The notes below the pieces were generated by a model. That model was not told the origin of the DNA. It saw only the letters and a program-made list of their open reading frames with translations, and ran no database searches. Positions 17,481-46,193 of a stretch of 64,000 bases of DNA are shown here, piece by piece. Location: contig WGER01000082.1 in assembly GCA_015492645.1 (NCBI GenBank), forward strand, positions 61,155 through 125,154. The letters are read 5' to 3'. This DNA is from Nitrospirota bacterium (GTDB lineage Bacteria > Nitrospirota > Thermodesulfovibrionia > Thermodesulfovibrionales > JdFR-85). The translations under genes and the position numbers were made by a program. The first letter of the stretch is position 1, and each line of letters begins with the position of its first letter.

Positions 17481-17575
17481 CCCTGAATTACCAATAAGAA
17501 ATGGATTTTTAAGGCAGGGTTCTCTGCCGCTTACCATGGTTTTGACTGGAAGCCAATCGCCGCTTCTGATACAGG
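17481..17575. repeat. Degenerate copy of the dispersed intergenic repeat
   Basis: The left end CCCTGAATTACCAATAAG runs to a GGCAGG block, like the left ends at 40489 and 43642. The right part (GGTTTTGACTGGAAGCCAAT) resembles 19615-19645. Both ends are present but eroded, with about 20 bases between them. Confidence 0.45.
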
Positions 17576-19360: not shown

Positions 19361-19645
19361 AGGACTGGTTCGGACACAAAGAGGCAAAAGGCGATAGGCG
19401 ATGGGCAATAGGCAGCACTGCCTGTCTCTTCAATCCCTTTTCATCCCATGGTTGACCCTTCTTACATTGGGCACGGCAGTATCGCTGAACTGAACTCTGA
19501 AGTCAGAGGATCTTCTGACCTCTGACTTCAGAGTTCTGATTTCTGTCTTTCGGCAGAGGGCACCCAGAAGAATCGTGGATTTTTCTGGGCAGGAACTCCC
19601 ACCACCTGTAATGTCTTTTTGACTAAAGCCAACGGCAATCTACGG
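19361..19645 (+). repeat. Dispersed intergenic repeat with a 17-bp perfect hairpin, in a 528-base gap
   Basis: The gap 19209-19736 has no gene. It holds, in order: the GGTTCGGACA module and AATAGGC short repeats ending GGCAGCACTGCC (19410-19421), as at 35708 and 43800; a perfect hairpin AACTCTGAAGTCAGAGG/CCTCTGACTTCAGAGTT (19493-19509, 19519-19535) whose counterpart is near 44010-44075; the CCCAGAAGAATC/GATTTTTCTGGG hairpin; and the end ...GGCAATCTACGG at 19645. The other outer end is missing, so this is a truncated copy. Bases 19209-19360 show nothing recognisable. Confidence 0.6.
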
Positions 19646-37612: not shown

Positions 37613-39018
37613 TAAGGTCTGTGGTGTCTGCCGTAATGGTCATCTATCCGCTCAATATCGTCCTCCTCCACATACTCTCCGTTCTGTACTTCTATTATTT
37701 CAAGGGGGATCTTCCCGGGATTCTCAAGCCTGTGCAATGTCGACTTGGGCACATAGGCGGATTCGTTCTCATGGACATACACCTCTCTGTCTCCGATCCT
37801 CACCTTCGCTGTCCCCTTTACCACCACCCAGTGTTCTGAACGGTGGTAGTGTTTCTGGAGGCTCAACTTCTGTCCAGGATAGACCACTATCCTCTTTATC
37901 TTGTACCTCTCACCCCTTTCAAGAACGGTGTAATACCCCCACGGACGGTATGTGGTGAGGTGATCAGAGGCCTCAGACCTCTTCTTCTCCTCAAGTATCT
38001 TCACAATCTCTCTCACCCTCTGGGCCTGCCCCTTCCTGGCGATCAGTATAGCATCATCCGTCTCAATCACAAGGCAGTCCTCTATGCCTACTGTGGCAAT
38101 AAGCCTCTTGTTGCCCATGATCAAACTCTCTCTGGTCTGTACAGTGAAGACATCTCCACTCTTGATGTTACCCTCTTTATCCTTTTCATAAAACTCATAA
38201 AGGGAATCCCACGAACCTATGTCGTTCCAGTAGAGATCAAGCGGCAGTGTAGCAACCCTGGTAGATTTCTCCATAACTGCATAATCTATTGATATATCTG
38301 GCAGCCGTGAAAAGCCATCAATCATCTCCTGAAAGGACCCTTCCAGGGCCTCCCCCACCTCTGGTAGGTAGTTCCGGTATTCTTCGATAATGGTGTCCAT
38401 CCTGAAGGCAAACATACCAGAATTCCAGTAAAAGTCTCCACTCTGTAAGTATTCCTCTGCCTTTTCCAGGCTCGGTTTCTCTGTGAACATCTCGACCCTG
38501 TAGGCCATTCTATCTGGGTCAACGGGGCTGTTCCTGTCGGCCTTGATGTAGCCATAGCCAGTCTCTGCTCTGGTGGGTCTTATTCCAAATGTTACTATAT
38601 AACCTCCTGAAGCGACTTCCTCTCCGACCCTGAGATACTGAATGAATCTGTCCTGAGGTGAGATGAGATGATCCGATGGACAGACAAAGACCACCTCCTC
38701 CGGATTAGAGCCGAGTTTCTCAATACAGTATTTTATCCCGAGTGCTATGGCTGGAGCGGTATTCCTGCCAACCGGCTCCAAGACCAGGTTCTCCTCCCTG
38801 AATGAAAAGGGCATCAACTGTGAAAGGACAAAGAAGCGGTACTCACTGTTGGTCAGGACAATGATATCCTCTGGTCTGATAAATCCGAGCAACCTCTCCA
38901 CTGTCTGCTGAAGGAGTGAGGCCTCTCCGTTCAGTTTCAGAAACTGTTTTGGGTATCTCTTCCTGGACAGTGGCCAGAGGCGGGTGCCACTGCCGCCTGC
39001 AAGGACAAGGGCCTTCAT
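37612..39018 (-). CDS. manC: Mannose-1-phosphate guanylyltransferase/mannose-6-phosphate isomerase
   Basis: 468 aa bifunctional type. N-terminal nucleotidyltransferase begins LAGGSGTRLWPLSRKRYPKQFLKL with FVCPSDHLI and FTEKPSLEKAEEYL; the C-terminal cupin (about 350-468) has the metal-binding KHYHRSEHWVVVKGTA and is the isomerase half. Together with manB it makes GDP-mannose for LPS O-chain or exopolysaccharide. ATGA overlap with manB. Confidence 0.96.
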   Translation of the reverse strand: MKALVLAGGSGTRLWPLSRKRYPKQFLKLNGEASLLQQTVERLLGFIRPEDIIVLTNSEYRFFVLSQLMPFSFREENLVLEPVGRNTAPAIALGIKYCIEKLGSNPEEVVFVCPSDHLISPQDRFIQYLRVGEEVASGGYIVTFGIRPTRAETGYGYIKADRNSPVDPDRMAYRVEMFTEKPSLEKAEEYLQSGDFYWNSGMFAFRMDTIIEEYRNYLPEVGEALEGSFQEMIDGFSRLPDISIDYAVMEKSTRVATLPLDLYWNDIGSWDSLYEFYEKDKEGNIKSGDVFTVQTRESLIMGNKRLIATVGIEDCLVIETDDAILIARKGQAQRVREIVKILEEKKRSEASDHLTTYRPWGYYTVLERGERYKIKRIVVYPGQKLSLQKHYHRSEHWVVVKGTAKVRIGDREVYVHENESAYVPKSTLHRLENPGKIPLEIIEVQNGEYVEEDDIERIDDHYGRHHRP

Positions 39019-40436
39019 ATCTCCTCCATTGCGATCTCAAATTCTTTCATCATATAGACCTTCAATTTCTCAAGGGTCTCTTCATCATCAGCCTCCGCTC
39101 TCATCACCACAACTGGCTGGGTGTTGCTTGACCTTAAAAGCACCCATCCCCTCTCAAAGACGGCCCTCACTCCATCTATATCATATATCTCCTTCAATTC
39201 GTAGGGACAACCACCATTCCTCATATATCCCCTGAATCGCTCCACCACACGCTGAACCACCGCCCTTTTCTTTTCTTCTGGACACTCTATTCTTATCTCC
39301 GGGGTATTGTATCTCGTAGGGACATCAGCAAGGAGTTCCTCTATCCCCTTACCCTCCTTCTTCATCACCTCTATCAGCCGAAGGGTCGTGTAAATTGCAT
39401 CATCGTAACCAAAGTACCTGTCTGCAATGAATATATGCCCGCTCAACTCCCCTGCCAGGATCGCCCCTTCCTGCTTCATCTTCTCCTTTACAAGGGAGTG
39501 ACCGGTCTTCCACATGATAGGCACTCCCCCGGCCTTCTTCACCTCTTTAAACATAAAATCGGAACACTTCACATCCCCTATCACCTTTGCACCAGGATGG
39601 CTCTTCAGTATATCCCTTGCGAGGATGACAAGGATCTGGTCGCCCCATATGATCCTCCCTCTGGGGTCAACTACGCCAATCCTGTCAACATCACCGTCAT
39701 ATCCGACACCCAGGTCAGCCCCTGTACGGACCGTTGTCTCTATCAGGTCCTGCATGTTCTCAATCACAGTAGGATCTGGGTGATGGTTTGGGAATCTACC
39801 GTCAGGCTCACAGTACAGTTCCACTACCTCACATCCCAGATGCCTCAACAGTTCAGGAGCAACAAGCCCTCCCGTGCCATTTCCGGCATCAACAACCACC
39901 CTGAAGACCCTGTAATTCGAGTCTCTTAATGAAGAAAAATGCTCCTGCATGTATTGCCTGTATGCGTTGATTATATCATATGCCACTACATCACCCTGCC
40001 GGGGCGAAAGATGATAATCGCCTCTTTCTATGATATGCCTCAGTTGTTGTATAGCAGCTCCGTGGATTGTCTCTCTCCCAATACTCAGTTTAAAGCCATT
40101 GTACTCTGGGGGGTTGTGGCTGCCTGTAACCATAACCCCACCAGACAGACCGAGACGATGCAACGAGAAGTACTGCAGGGGAGTGGGACAGATCCCCAGG
40201 TCATACACGCCAACTCCTGTTGCCACAATGCCCTCTATCAGTGCCTCTGTGAGTTCATCTGAGGATAGCCTCGCATCCCTTCCTACACTCACCCTCAAAT
40301 CTTCGTCCCTATGGATGGCCTTCACCAGCGTCCCAAAGGCCCTTCCCACAAGGCGGGCAATCTCCCCGGTAAGATCCCTCCCTGCAATCCCCCTGATATC
40401 GTATTCCCTGAAGATAAGAGGACTGACCTTTCCCAT
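39015..40436 (-). CDS. manB: Phosphomannomutase/phosphoglucomutase
   Basis: 473 aa from ATG 40436 (MGKVSPLIFREYDIRG). Phosphoserine loop TGSHNPPEYNG, metal loop GYDGDVDRIG, sugar loop GELSGH and phosphate loop RSSNTQPVVVMR define the alpha-D-phosphohexomutase family of the AlgC type. It makes mannose-1-phosphate for ManC. The track start (40475) is impossible if the strong promoter at 40475-40447 is real, since those codons overlap the -35 and -10. Confidence 0.95.
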   Translation of the reverse strand: MGKVSPLIFREYDIRGIAGRDLTGEIARLVGRAFGTLVKAIHRDEDLRVSVGRDARLSSDELTEALIEGIVATGVGVYDLGICPTPLQYFSLHRLGLSGGVMVTGSHNPPEYNGFKLSIGRETIHGAAIQQLRHIIERGDYHLSPRQGDVVAYDIINAYRQYMQEHFSSLRDSNYRVFRVVVDAGNGTGGLVAPELLRHLGCEVVELYCEPDGRFPNHHPDPTVIENMQDLIETTVRTGADLGVGYDGDVDRIGVVDPRGRIIWGDQILVILARDILKSHPGAKVIGDVKCSDFMFKEVKKAGGVPIMWKTGHSLVKEKMKQEGAILAGELSGHIFIADRYFGYDDAIYTTLRLIEVMKKEGKGIEELLADVPTRYNTPEIRIECPEEKKRAVVQRVVERFRGYMRNGGCPYELKEIYDIDGVRAVFERGWVLLRSSNTQPVVVMRAEADDEETLEKLKVYMMKEFEIAMEEI

Positions 40437-40446
40437 CGCCTCTTTC

Positions 40447-40475
40447 ATTATAAAGCAAGACAGTCCTTTTTTCAA
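40447..40475 (-). promoter_or_regulatory. Near-consensus promoter of manB-manC-vanZ
   Basis: TTGAAA (40475-40470), 17 bases, TATAAT (40452-40447), then 10 bases to ATG 40436. Best sigma70-type promoter in the window; expected leader 3 to 4 bases. Confidence 0.75.
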
Positions 40476-40488
40476 CTATGCACTTTCA

Positions 40489-40823
40489 CCCTAAATTGCC
40501 GATAGAATTTCAATCAAAACTTTGGAAGGCGGCAGGGGGTCCCCACAAGATCAGAAGATCTTGTGGGGCAGTGGAACTCAGCCCAGGAAAATCCACGATT
40601 TTCCTGGGAACCCTTGCCGAAAAATCAGGATTTCAGCAACACCACAAGTGCCATTACCAATGTAACAACCTTCACCCTATAAGTGAACAAGGGTTAGAAC
40701 TGTATGAATTAAATCTGTCGCATAAATTCAGTTTTCTGCCCCGAAAATCAAAGATTTTCGGGGACCCCCATTTTGAGGCAACCCCCGCCGTCTTTTAATC
40801 GTATTTCTAACGGCTAACCTGGG
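40489..40823. mobile_element. MITE-like element, 335 bp, with 5-bp target duplication TTTCA
   Basis: Inverted ends CCCTAAATTGCCGATAGAAT and (read inward from the right) CCCAGGTTAGCCGTTAGAAA, each followed within about 50 bases by a GGC(A)GGGGG block. Flanking TTTCA occurs at both sides (40484-40488, 40824-40828). Inside are three perfect hairpins: CCCCACAAGATC/GATCTTGTGGGG (40541-40568), CCCAGGAAAATC/GATTTTCCTGGG (40582-40608) and CCCCGAAAATC/GATTTTCGGGG (40739-40763). No transposase; ORF 40478..40798 is translated repeat. This fills most of the gap between manB and the unknown gene. Confidence 0.75.
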
Positions 40824-40828
40824 TTTCA

Positions 40829-40865
40829 CCCAGATTTACCGCTAGACCTTCAATCAATATTATAC
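40829..40865. repeat. Second, orphan end of the same repeat family
   Basis: CCCAGATTTACCGCTAGACC follows directly after the TTTCA duplication and matches the outer end at 43642. The 335-bp copy seems to have landed at the border of an older, now lost copy. Confidence 0.5.
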
Positions 40866-40889
40866 TTTCACATTCATCCTGTTTGCTTG

Positions 40890-40898
40890 TGTTAAAAT
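40890..40898 (+). promoter_or_regulatory. Extended -10 box of the unknown gene at 40906 (leaderless type)
   Basis: TGT-TAAAAT, then TATCTTG and ATG 40906; no SD. Confidence 0.45.
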
Positions 40899-40905
40899 TA
40901 TCTTG

Positions 40906-41529
40906 ATGGCAGAACTGGGAGAAATAAAGAAACCTTCTATAAATCAATACATTGAAAGGAGGAAGGTCTACTGTGTGAATAATATCCTGATAGGGAGGGA
41001 TACTCCTGACGACCTGAAGGGGATCGTCCAGAAGTACTGGCATCAGGTAGAGGAACAACTTGAGAGACTGGAACTGGCAGGAAGAGTCAAAAAGGTCTTT
41101 TGTGAGGCTATTTACACAGGGGGTGAAGAGGCCCTCCGTACACTATCAGAGATAAATGAATATGCAGGAAGGATTGTTAAGAAGAAATTAGAAGAAGGGG
41201 CGGAACTTCTGCCCCTGGAAGACCCATCTATTTACGGCCCCTACTTAGACTGGCGAAATTGTCTCGTAGTGGTTCAGACAGAGGAGGTCTACAGGAAGGT
41301 TGCAGAGTTTTTTCAGCAATATCATAAACTCAGGCTTCAGCATATCCAGAAACGGCTTCAGGACAGCATCGGACCTGCAGAGGCCGCCCTTCTTATAATG
41401 GCCGATGAGGAGAGGGCAAAGATTCAGTTTCCTCCGGATATGGAGGTCTTTCTTGTAACACCTCCAGCCCACGATGAGATCCTGAAGTGGTTCAGGGACA
41501 ACCTCAGGAACAAGACAGAGGGGTCATAA
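40906..41529 (+). CDS. Conserved-looking protein of unknown function
   Basis: 207 aa, soluble, not recognised. Charged helical N-terminal half (DDLKGIVQKYWHQVEEQLERLELAGRVKKVFCEAIYTGGEEALRTLSEINEYAGRIVKKKLEEGAELLPLEDPSIYGPYLDWRNCLVVVQTEEVYRKV shown only in outline: helix-strand-helix pattern) followed by helices with HIQKRLQDSI and a C-terminal strand-helix FLVTPPAHDEIL. No membrane segment or metal motif. Codon use is like its neighbours, and the end overlaps the convergent fmdB gene by 6 bases. ATG 40906 chosen over TTG 40903. Confidence 0.7.
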   Translation: MAELGEIKKPSINQYIERRKVYCVNNILIGRDTPDDLKGIVQKYWHQVEEQLERLELAGRVKKVFCEAIYTGGEEALRTLSEINEYAGRIVKKKLEEGAELLPLEDPSIYGPYLDWRNCLVVVQTEEVYRKVAEFFQQYHKLRLQHIQKRLQDSIGPAEAALLIMADEERAKIQFPPDMEVFLVTPPAHDEILKWFRDNLRNKTEGS

Positions 41530-43616: not shown

Positions 43617-43641
43617 GCATTGTCCCGAATTTGACCCTAAT

Positions 43642-44216
43642 CCCAGATTTGCCATTAAAAATGAGTTTTTACAGCAGGGGTCTCCACAAAATCAGAGATT
43701 TTGTGGGGACTGAGGGACTCAGGTCATTGAAAAATCTACGATTTTTCAAGGGAGCCCTGTCTCAAAACATGATTTTTATACAACATGTCTTTGCAAGGAG
43801 GGCAGTGCTGGTTCGGACACAAATTATGCGATGAATTTTATTACATGAGGTTGTACCTTCTTCAGACACAGAGGTGGTGACATTGACCTCTGCACTTAAG
43901 GTATCGCTGAATTTGATGCCTCACCAGCACTGCCCTCCTCCTTCAACCCTTTTTCACCCAATGGGTGAGTCGTTACATTGGGCACTGCATCGGAGGTGTC
44001 GTTGAACAGAAGTCGGAAGCCAGAGGTCTGAACTCAGACAAAGGGATCTTCTGACCTCTGATTCCGACTTCTGATTTCTGTCTTTCAGCAAGGGTCCCCA
44101 GGAGGATCGTGGATTTTCCTGGGCTGAGTTCCTCTGCCCCACAAGATCTTCTGATCTTGTGGGGACCCCCTGCCGTCTTCTAAAGTTTTGATTTAAATTC
44201 TACCGGCAAATCTGGG
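43642..44216. mobile_element. MITE-like element, 575 bp, with 5-bp target duplication CTAAT
   Basis: Perfect outer 12 bases CCCAGATTTGCC and GGCAAATCTGGG, with similarity extending inward to a GCAGGGG block on both sides. CTAAT flanks both ends (43637-43641, 44217-44221). Hairpins inside include CCACAAAATC/GATTTTGTGG (43684-43706), TTGAAAAATC/GATTTTTCAA (43727-43749), an imperfect AGAAGTCGG.../...CCGACTTCT stem (about 44008-44073), CCCAGGAGGATC/GATTTTCCTGGG (44097-44123) and CCCCACAAGATC/GATCTTGTGGGG (44137-44164). No protein-coding gene. It occupies most of the 674-base gap between the SRPBCC gene and lysR. Confidence 0.8.
43800..43935. repeat. Nested unit with 12-bp perfect inverted ends
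   Basis: GGGCAGTGCTGG (43800-43811) and CCAGCACTGCCC (43924-43935) enclose GTTCGGACACAAATTATGCG. Shorter relatives are at 35708-35778 and 19361-19421, so this is a second repeat carried inside the first. Confidence 0.6.
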
Positions 44217-44229
44217 CTAATGCGGATAG

Positions 44230-44262
44230 TTGACAGAACATAAAATTTATTTATATTATAAT
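44230..44262 (+). promoter_or_regulatory. Promoter of the lysR gene
   Basis: TTGACA (44230-44235), then TATATT (44252-44257, spacer 16) overlapping TATAAT (44257-44262). ATG 44272 is 9 to 14 bases further; no SD. Confidence 0.55.
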
Positions 44263-44271
44263 TAACTTACG

Positions 44272-45186
44272 ATGGCGCTTGATGATCATAAATTACGTGT
44301 CTTCTGCACAGTTGCAGAGACAAAGAGTTTCTCCAAGGCCTCGGAGATCATACACCTGACTCAACCTGCTGTGAGTCTGCAGATCCAGGCCCTTGAGGAG
44401 ATGTATGAGACGAAACTCTTTGATCGGACCAGCAGTGCCGTGACCCTGACTCCTGCAGGAGAGATACTCTACAGGTATGCAAAACATATCCTCTCTCTGT
44501 ACGCACTTGCTGAGAAGGAGATAGGGGAGTTGACAGGACTTGTAAAGGGGAGTGTCTCAGTAGGGGCGAGCACCACGATAGCAAACTACCTTCTGCCGAG
44601 GGTGATAGCCGATTTCAAGAAGACCAGGCCAAAGGTGAAGATAAACATGCAGGTCGGCAACACCAAAAGGGTGGTTGAACTCCTCAAGGGTGGAAATATT
44701 GATATTGGACTGGTGGAAGGGGAAGTGGCGAGGCAGAAACTCACGATGGAGAAACTGATTGAAGACGAACTGGTCCTTATAGTGCCTCCCCAGCATCAGT
44801 TTGCGAAGAAGAAGGAGGTCTCTGTCTTTGAGGTCACATCTGAGCCTTTTATAATGAGAGAGGAGGGTTCAGGTACGAGGCAGATGATCGAAAAGTACCT
44901 TGAGAAGCATGGTATCACACCACAGAATATGAGGATTTCCATGATACTGGGGAGCACCGAGGCCATCAAACAGGCCGTGGAGAATGGTCTCGGCATCTCG
45001 ATCATCTCACGCTGGGCTGCACTGAAAGAGGTCAAATTTGAGACATTAAAGACGGTGAGTTTTAAGGAGGAGAGGTTTCTGAGAAACTTTACACTGATAT
45101 ACCCCAAGCATGAGGTCCTCTCCCATGCGGCAGAGGAGTTCCTTGATTATCTGAGAAAGTATGACTTCTTAAAACTCCTCAGTTAG
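44272..45186 (+). CDS. LysR-family transcriptional regulator
   Basis: 304 aa. N-terminal winged helix-turn-helix LRVFCTVAETKSFSKASEIIHLTQPAVSLQIQALEE (about 8-45) and a C-terminal periplasmic-binding-like effector domain (about 90-300) with VGASTTIANYLLPRVIADF. Close in layout to CysL/CbbR-type regulators of sulfur, selenium or carbon metabolism. Targets unknown; it faces selD tail to tail with a 4-base overlap, so it does not share selD's promoter. Confidence 0.92.
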   Translation: MALDDHKLRVFCTVAETKSFSKASEIIHLTQPAVSLQIQALEEMYETKLFDRTSSAVTLTPAGEILYRYAKHILSLYALAEKEIGELTGLVKGSVSVGASTTIANYLLPRVIADFKKTRPKVKINMQVGNTKRVVELLKGGNIDIGLVEGEVARQKLTMEKLIEDELVLIVPPQHQFAKKKEVSVFEVTSEPFIMREEGSGTRQMIEKYLEKHGITPQNMRISMILGSTEAIKQAVENGLGISIISRWAALKEVKFETLKTVSFKEERFLRNFTLIYPKHEVLSHAAEEFLDYLRKYDFLKLLS

Positions 45187-46193
45187 GTAACCCTTAATCT
45201 GCCTTTACCGCTCGTAACATGACCTATTTTTTTATAAAAGATACGGGCCTCTTCAAATTCCCTCAGTCCTTCCTCACTCAAAGTGATCAAAAGCCCCCCT
45301 GAGGTCTGAGGATCAGACAGGATCAGTTGTTTCTCCTCTGGGACCCCTGTAAAGTCAGCCACTCCCTGGAGGAACTTCAGGTTATCATAGGCCCCCTCAG
45401 GTACAATCCCCATCTCTACCAGATCCATCACCCCTGCCAACAGAGGCACACTGTCGGAGTCTATAACAAGGTCAAGGGGCTCCTCTCTTATAATGTTATA
45501 GGCATGTCCCAGTAACCCGAATCCGGTTACATCTGTACACGCGGTTGCACCTGCCCTCAGGGCCAACTCTGAGGCGGTTCTGTTAGACAGTGTCATCCAG
45601 GAAAGGGCCTCCTGCATCTCCTCATCTGTCAGTTTCTCTCCCTTCAATGCTGTAACTATTACACCAGTACCTATGGGTTTGGTCAGGAGGAGGATGTTCC
45701 CTTCCTCAGCCCCCTTTACTGTCAGGAGTCTGTCCTTGGTGGTGAGACCTGTGATAGAAAAGCCCACCTTCAGTTCTGGGTCCTCAAAGGTATGACCGCC
45801 GAGCAGGGCAACGCCTTCTCTCTGAAAGACCTCATCTGCACCTCTCAGGATCTCAAGGACTACCTCCCTTTCTGTATCACAGGAGGAGAAACCAAGAATA
45901 CAGAGGGCGGTCCTGGGCGTGGCCCCCATAGCAAAAATATCGCTCAAGGCATTTGTGGCCGCTATTGAACCAAATATATGGGGGTCGTTTGCCACAGGTG
46001 TGATCACATCCACTGTCTCAACAAGGAGGAGATCTTCAACCAGTTGGAATACTCCTGCATCATCTCCTGGAGGCACAAGTACTCCTGGCATATTCGCCTT
46101 TTGGAGGTCCTGGATAAGAACCTGCAGGTCCAACGGACCCATTTTGGCTGCTCAACCCGCTGCCCTTGTCTTCTCAAGAAGCCTGTAGGCCAT
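45183..46193 (-). CDS. selD: Selenide, water dikinase, itself a selenoprotein (UGA at codon 14)
   Basis: 336 aa counting Sec. The ORF track starts only at codon 18 (46142), after an in-frame TGA. Reading through from ATG 46193 gives MAYRLLEKTRAAG-U-AAKMGP, and G-(C/U)-xxK-xGP is the conserved catalytic Cys/Sec-Lys motif of SelD. Downstream are PGDDAGVF, EGNILLLTKPIGTG, CTDVTGFGLLGHA and LSDPQTSGGLLI, all typical. It makes selenophosphate from selenide and ATP. A hairpin fitting a bacterial SECIS follows the UGA. Divergent from the disulfide reductase gene 76 bases away. Confidence 0.93.
46127..46154 (-). promoter_or_regulatory. Sec codon UGA and candidate SECIS hairpin in selD
   Basis: UGA at 46154-46152; 12 bases later GGTCC-GTT-GGACC (46139-46127) makes a 5-bp stem with a GTT loop. 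Position, size and the G-U in the loop are as in bacterial SECIS elements bound by SelB. Confidence 0.7.

Follow-up and report, generated by a model that had tools for sequence, protein, structure and literature searches.

Our analysis shows that the 575-bp element at positions 43642-44216 of the window (the whole stretch of 64,000 nucleotides analysed; G000:C82:61155-125154, in a genome of 2.43 Mb in 91 contigs) belongs to a family of gene-less MITEs located at dozens to hundreds of places, 13-14 bases upstream of a predicted -35 box. We consider it likely that these MITEs are mobilised in trans by an IS1380 transposase, and that their insertion is directed upstream of promoters, probably via RNA polymerase or a preference for upstream DNA. 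The fixed promoter distance is the most unusual feature of the element and is absent from the initial annotation. The features of the element and its surroundings are as follows (strand in brackets; lines without one have none assigned).

40484..40828, second complete copy within the window, spanning 40489-40823 (335 bp), with TTTCA at 40484-40488 and 40824-40828
40829..40919, possible degenerate copy, 91 bp, adjoining the 40489-40823 copy; end matches at 40829 and 40908-40919
43637..43641, left CTAAT, 5-bp target duplication, significant at the family level
43642..44216, non-autonomous IS1380-family MITE, 575 bp; related autonomous element at locus L223
43642..43660 (+), left terminal inverted repeat, alpha-type end CCCAGATTTGCC-ATTAAAAATGAGTTTTT; 12 bp perfect, 19 bp imperfect
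43680..43710, internal hairpin A, GTCTCCACAAAATC / GATTTTGTGGGGAC, of the covarying stem family
43727..43749, internal hairpin B, TTGAAAAATC-TAC-GATTTTTCAA, read from the sequence, of the same stem family
43796..43939, nested repeat module AGGAGGGCAGTGCTGGTTCGG..., with inverted 37-nt arms at 43796-43832 and 43903-43939
43955..43967, hairpin CACCCAATGGGTG; same sequence directly upstream of the L275 IS1380 transposase gene
44007..44073, internal inverted repeat CAGAAGTCGGAA...TTCCGACTTCTG, also carried by another repeat that precedes the partial IS1380 gene of contig C50
44097..44123, internal hairpin B', CCCAGGAGGATC / GATTTTCCTGGG, read from the sequence, of the stem family
44137..44164, internal hairpin A', CCCCACAAGATC / GATCTTGTGGGG
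44198..44216 (-), right terminal inverted repeat, beta-type end CCCAGATTTGCCGGTAGAATTTAAATCAAAACTTT (as read on the - strand)
44217..44221, right CTAAT, copy of the target duplication
44230..44235 (+), predicted -35 box TTGACA of the downstream gene, starting 13 nt outside the right end of the element
44272..45186 (+), selenium-metabolism-associated LysR regulator whose promoter adjoins the element (NF040786, 298.8 bits, cut-off 250)

As the initial annotation had described, perfect 12-bp inverted ends (CCCAGATTTGCC at 43642-43653 and GGCAAATCTGGG at 44205-44216) are flanked by CTAAT, and the interior holds several hairpins and a nested inverted-repeat unit. It had likewise rightly stated that the element is devoid of a coding gene: none within the 575 bp is plausible, the only open reading frames being mechanical ones of 62 and 67 amino acids. 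Beyond the perfect 12 bp the terminal repeat continues imperfectly to reach 19 nt at 84%, and one half of the element aligns with the reverse complement of the other over ~110 bp (72%). Single-strand folding of the whole element gives -137 kcal/mol, compared with -70 +/- 5 in shuffles (z = -12.7). A search by DNA match for a plasmid-borne copy of the repeat yielded none, and the end pattern is absent among viral contigs, giving no sign of viral carriage.

In the fragmented assembly of its own genome, and counted from pattern and BLAST matches plus individual stretches, the family comprises ~100 ends (consensus CCCAGATTTGCCGTTAGAA) and copies of roughly 80-575 bp. Searching this genome with the ends, a check that the initial annotation had proposed, gave 56 matches to the end motif when up to one mismatch was allowed, versus 1 for a reversed control pattern. 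A longer end pattern (at most two mismatches) likewise occurs 56 times in the own genome, a few times in other genera of the same family and not at all in the same-genus genome G001, and a weight matrix (PWM >= 11) located 102 end-like sites in 321 kb of own-genome stretches versus 2 in shuffled sequence. A BLASTN search of the own genome with the element returned 64 matches, one of them near-full at 83% identity and many partial and modular. Two main subterminal types can be distinguished, alpha/gamma (AGAAATRNTTGTTTTT or AGAAATACGATTAAAA) and beta/delta (AGAATTTCAATCAAAACTYTGGAAGG or AGACTTTCGGTCAAAACTACAG). The two ends of a paired copy are usually of different type, as is expected of an insertion sequence whose left and right ends differ.

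Flanking repeats of at least 5 bp are present at 9 of 22 convergent end pairs in the own genome (lengths 5-7 bp), with 0.5 expected by chance and a maximum of 3 in 500 shuffles; at loci of other genomes (Nitrospirota and Acidulodesulfobacteriota MAGs) a duplication flanks 26 of 47 pairs, exactly 5 bp being repeated in 23, versus 0.8 expected. Judged at the family level, CTAAT is thus a genuine target duplication, and the many same-end copies with significant duplications bear out the earlier reading of a non-autonomous transposon. That reading had also held that copies should share the 5-bp duplication and the end positions, which agrees with the duplicated pairs and fails for the duplication-less copies, most of them with decayed ends. 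Further end-like or partial family matches in the window lie at 17481, 19413-19590 and 62015. The C16 region 71740-72901, considered as a gene-carrying copy, was rejected: it consists of two decayed ends around a carbonic-anhydrase-like host gene (identified by eye).

The initial annotation knew no named family with such ends, and it is here that its account has to be replaced. GTDB genome contigs were scanned for CCCARAWWTGCCGNTAGAAAW, giving at least 115 stretches; the matches listed are mostly from Candidatus Acididesulfobacter diazotrophicus, other MAGs and Nitrospirota/Thermodesulfovibrionales. At L223 (4098-5729), an element of 1,632 bp, bounded by CCCAAAATTGCCGATAGAAAT / CTGTAATTTGCCGATAGAAAC and flanked on either side by TTTAC, encodes a 425-aa IS1380-family DDE transposase (NF033539 IS1380, 228 bits versus a curated cut-off of 180; Pfam DDE_Tnp_1_4). 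At L275, whose source belongs to the order of the window genome, an IS1380 element has ends CCCTATTTTGCCGATAGAAAA / CCCTAAATTGCCGATAGGAAA and scores 243 bits (cut-off 180); no target duplication was seen there. The ends of both elements are close to, yet differ from, those of the window element. Since an IS1380 transposase is located between related ends, and since duplications are present, the window element can be classified as an IS1380-family MITE: it exhibits terminal inverted repeats, a duplication, many gene-less copies and ends of a type in common with autonomous elements (L223, L275), and L223 combines a transposase between such ends with a 5-bp duplication, five being the modal length. 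A 508-bp internal-deletion derivative (L309, 465-972), in which the ends and a transposase fragment are kept, represents an intermediate between insertion sequence and MITE.

The initial annotation had looked ahead to a transposase gene bounded by the same ends; such a gene exists at L223 in another genome, between ends that are related though not identical. Searches of the own genome brought no cognate transposase to light, a DDE_Tnp_1 search giving the C50 gene only. This sole IS1380 gene found there (L152 1456-2280; G000:C50:21556-22380) is truncated by the contig end and has relatives ~55% identical within the same class. To judge from L272 and from the sequence upstream of the C50 gene, its ends appear to be CCCAAAATCCGAAATAGG, unlike those of the MITEs, and it was rejected as the parent. 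As the gene is truncated and apparently has other ends, the cognate transposase would be lost, unassembled or too diverged. Also rejected as parents were the IS1380 genes of G011 (with a perfect TTAAACCTGAATCCTGCGT repeat and without window-type ends) and of G008 and G005 (likewise without such ends), and L179 136-1723, considered as an autonomous element, has AATTT flanks but encodes no transposase. A further IS1380 subgroup, with ends CCTTAACTCACCGTTAGAAAC, is represented by L295 1200-2818, L304 1192-2797 and L311 1395-3028, with 6-bp flanking repeats at L304 and L311 and a promoter at 14 nt in one of the three.

As judged from promoters predicted from sequence, the insertions precede the -35 hexamer of sigma-70 promoters by 13-14 nt, i.e., at ~-49 from the transcription start, with a sharpness near a single base. 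In the outward flanks of 80 own-genome ends TTGAC occurs 23 times, in 17 cases with its first base at a distance of 13-15 nt (6, 8 and 3 at 13, 14 and 15 nt), while TATAAT peaks at 38 (8 cases). Among 121 flanks from other genomes TTGAC is found at 13 and at 14 in 8 cases each and TATAAT at 35-37 in 20, the shuffle level for these flanks being ~0.45 (TTGAC) and ~2 (TATAAT) per 5-nt bin. Offsets 11-17 hold 24 of the 28 strong promoter matches in the own-genome flanks, and 23 of the 30 in those from other genomes (uniform-offset binomial 4e-17 and 2e-14, respectively). Scored per element by a sigma-70 weight matrix, 16 of the 21 elements of the own genome and 25 of the 46 from elsewhere have a predicted promoter at offset 12-15 on one or both sides, compared with 0-4 at other offsets and with 1.4 (own genome) and 2.4 (others) in shuffles; orthologous insertions from related MAGs were dropped if their first 60 flanking bases were identical, and some of those counted may be shared. 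For copies with intact duplications the corresponding figures are 5 of 8 and 14 of 26, and ~45% of the elements in AT-rich genomes are without a scored promoter at the site. The promoter may face either end type. The best promoter is at 13 for the autonomous elements L291 (= L223) and L275, and at 14 both for the derivative L309 and for L295, an IS1380 element with other ends; for L276 the peak is at 16.

The window provides two instances. Next to the TTGACA at 44230-44235, the best -10 box downstream of the 575-bp element is TATATT at 44252-44257, and the left end of the 40489-40823 copy lies 13 nt from the predicted -35 of a phosphomannomutase-type gene (39015-40475, - strand). The empty sites in relatives that the initial annotation had suggested to compare do exist: in the sister species G001 promoter-like sequence is kept and the element is absent at 4 of 4 comparable loci (the LysR gene, L322, L323 and L324), and the promoters thus exist independently of the element. 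The selenium-associated LysR gene stands beside an AIR-synthase-type (SelD-like) gene; this pair (together 44272-46142) is kept in G001, where the upstream neighbour differs.

In the account that we consider likely, an IS1380-family DDE transposase acts in trans on the MITE by recognising CCCARATTTGCCGNTAGAA-type ends, duplicates 5 (sometimes 6-7) bp of the target, and is directed to the site just upstream of a promoter, most probably because, as proposed for TnGBS, promoter-bound RNA polymerase recruits it or it prefers the DNA immediately upstream of that polymerase. Insertion would place a hairpin-rich block directly behind the promoter, so that upstream control sequences are separated while the -35 and -10 boxes stay intact. 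To the more far-reaching view that one IS1380 branch, unrelated to the Mutator-type TnGBS/ISLre2 elements, independently evolved RNA-polymerase-guided insertion at ~-49 of sigma-70 promoters, its MITEs having spread genome-wide in two phyla, we assign an even chance. On this view the duplication, centred ~11 bp ahead of the -35 box, would point to a single place of attachment on the initiation complex.

That TTGA at 13-14 is the sharpest feature of the flanks would also be expected if the transposase read the -35 sequence directly, without RNA polymerase. We regard this as improbable, though as the most credible of the alternatives: flanks lacking TTG are still enriched in TATAAT at 35-39 (11 in 118 flanks, the fullest bin; 8 in the second fullest), which weakly suggests that the whole promoter matters, and an unrelated transposase family inserts at nearly the same place. 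Random insertion, with purifying selection alone sparing copies upstream of promoters while others in promoters or genes are lost, appears a good deal less probable. It would account for the copies being mainly intergenic and upstream of genes, and insertion further downstream would indeed break the promoter; it does not, however, predict a peak only 1-2 bases wide (24 of the 28 strong matches at 11-17) that is already present among copies with intact duplications, where a one-sided plateau would be expected. Moreover, an iscR-like promoter in G001 tolerates ~60 bp of space upstream, and no such peak is exhibited by IS1678 (this analysis) or by IS256-type elements, which are without promoter-linked insertion (PMC3942029). 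Positive selection, in which the end acts as an upstream activator or UP-like site and only rightly spaced copies are kept, is more doubtful again. While the element end lies near the binding place of upstream activators, and the outer 18 bp common to both ends would allow either to act, such selection would have to hold at many loci, in two phyla, and for autonomous as well as intact-duplication copies. Finally, a structured RNA or regulatory repeat instead of a transposon, as the strong folding and the covarying hairpin stems might indicate, is hardly credible given the absence of an Rfam match within the element, the defined ends and duplications, and the fact that related ends bound an IS1380 transposase; once inserted, the element may still have such a role secondarily.

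Within the IS1380 family (ISEcp1, ISPme1, IS1678, ISSsu5) the likeness consists of (i) a transposase of the related autonomous elements that scores above the curated cut-off, (ii) short inverted ends starting with C, and (iii) a 5-bp duplication, which is seen for IS1678 too. The window element differs in being gene-less, and the ends of its family (CCCARATTTGCCGNTAGAA) can be set against CCTGAATAATTCATA for IS1678/ISSsu5. In contrast to the MITEs, IS1678 does not exhibit the sharp promoter position: in seven enterococcal insertions a score >= 6 near the site is reached on just two sides, and TTGA is never at 13-14; no clear peak was seen for IS1678, ISSsu5, IS613 and four other IS1380 elements. 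Promoter-fixed insertion hence seems to be the habit of one IS1380 branch.

TnGBS and ISLre2 have been described as inserting upstream of sigma-A promoters, 15-17 bp ahead of the -35 box, and the same holds for part of the ISKra4 group (PMC3942029). The same study calls promoter targeting unusual for prokaryotic transposases, proposes, with Ty3 as the analogue, that the polymerase initiation complex is contacted, and does not mention IS1380 (PMC3942029). Our family resembles TnGBS/ISLre2 (p-MULT 3) and the ISKra4 group (p-MULT 4) in its fixed distance upstream of a predicted sigma-A/70 -35 box, but the distance is 13-14 nt instead of 15-17 bp, and the transposase is IS1380 / DDE_Tnp_1_4 instead of Mutator-type; it works like these elements and is not one of them. 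In p-MULT 3 one end is oriented towards the promoter, whereas here it is either end, as in ISKra4-type elements with near-perfect inverted ends. Mutator-type (TnGBS/ISLre2) target duplications are ~8-9 bp long, which would place their centre ~12 bp away from the -35 box, near the value of 11 bp obtained here. With other bacterial MITEs, e.g., the TIMEs of Tn3 (PMC4133298), the element has in common that it is gene-less and short, with inverted ends, a duplication, many copies and a mosaic interior; it differs in its IS1380 origin. In the literature searched, promoter-fixed insertion was found neither for an IS1380-derived MITE nor for an IS1380 element.

Promoter-adjacent insertion has so far been known as an unusual trait of a few Mutator-type transposases. 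If our reading is true, a second, unrelated DDE family has the same habit, and promoter-bound polymerase may be a general landmark for bacterial transposons, much as the Pol III machinery is for Ty3 in yeast. The MITEs, which set strong hairpins directly behind unbroken promoters, supply dozens of natural insertion sites for the study of promoter-linked insertion, and their positions might serve to pinpoint real promoters of uncultured Nitrospirota and Acidulodesulfobacteriota.

As for the interior, an AAATC-NNN-GATTT core is common to the internal hairpins (43680-44164 in the window, and copies genome-wide). Their stems differ on both sides yet keep pairing in 46 cases, versus 0 in shuffled sequence, stem positions 2-4 being a mixture of G-C, C-G, A-T and T-A pairs; structural selection, template switching and module exchange are all candidate causes. 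The nested module also occurs elsewhere in the own genome and in G003. The CACCCAATGGGTG hairpin shared with L275 is a weak tie, suggestive only, the palindrome being short. A second repeat family (CTGTCCAAAATAACCTG...CAGGCGGTGTGCCGAA) is found at ~1100-1456 of L152 (G000:C50), at C52:67107 and at C65:14956, and its CAGAAGTCGGAA/TCAGAGGTC module is common to the window element, suggesting that modules may be exchanged among repeat families. Relatives of the MITE family in G003, G004, G006 and G011 (L114, L118, L120 and other loci) are similar elements with diverged ends CCCAAAAATGCCGATAGAAAA, in which an extended inverted repeat GCAGGNNGGTATTGGNTTTGAGCGG surrounds swappable hairpins.
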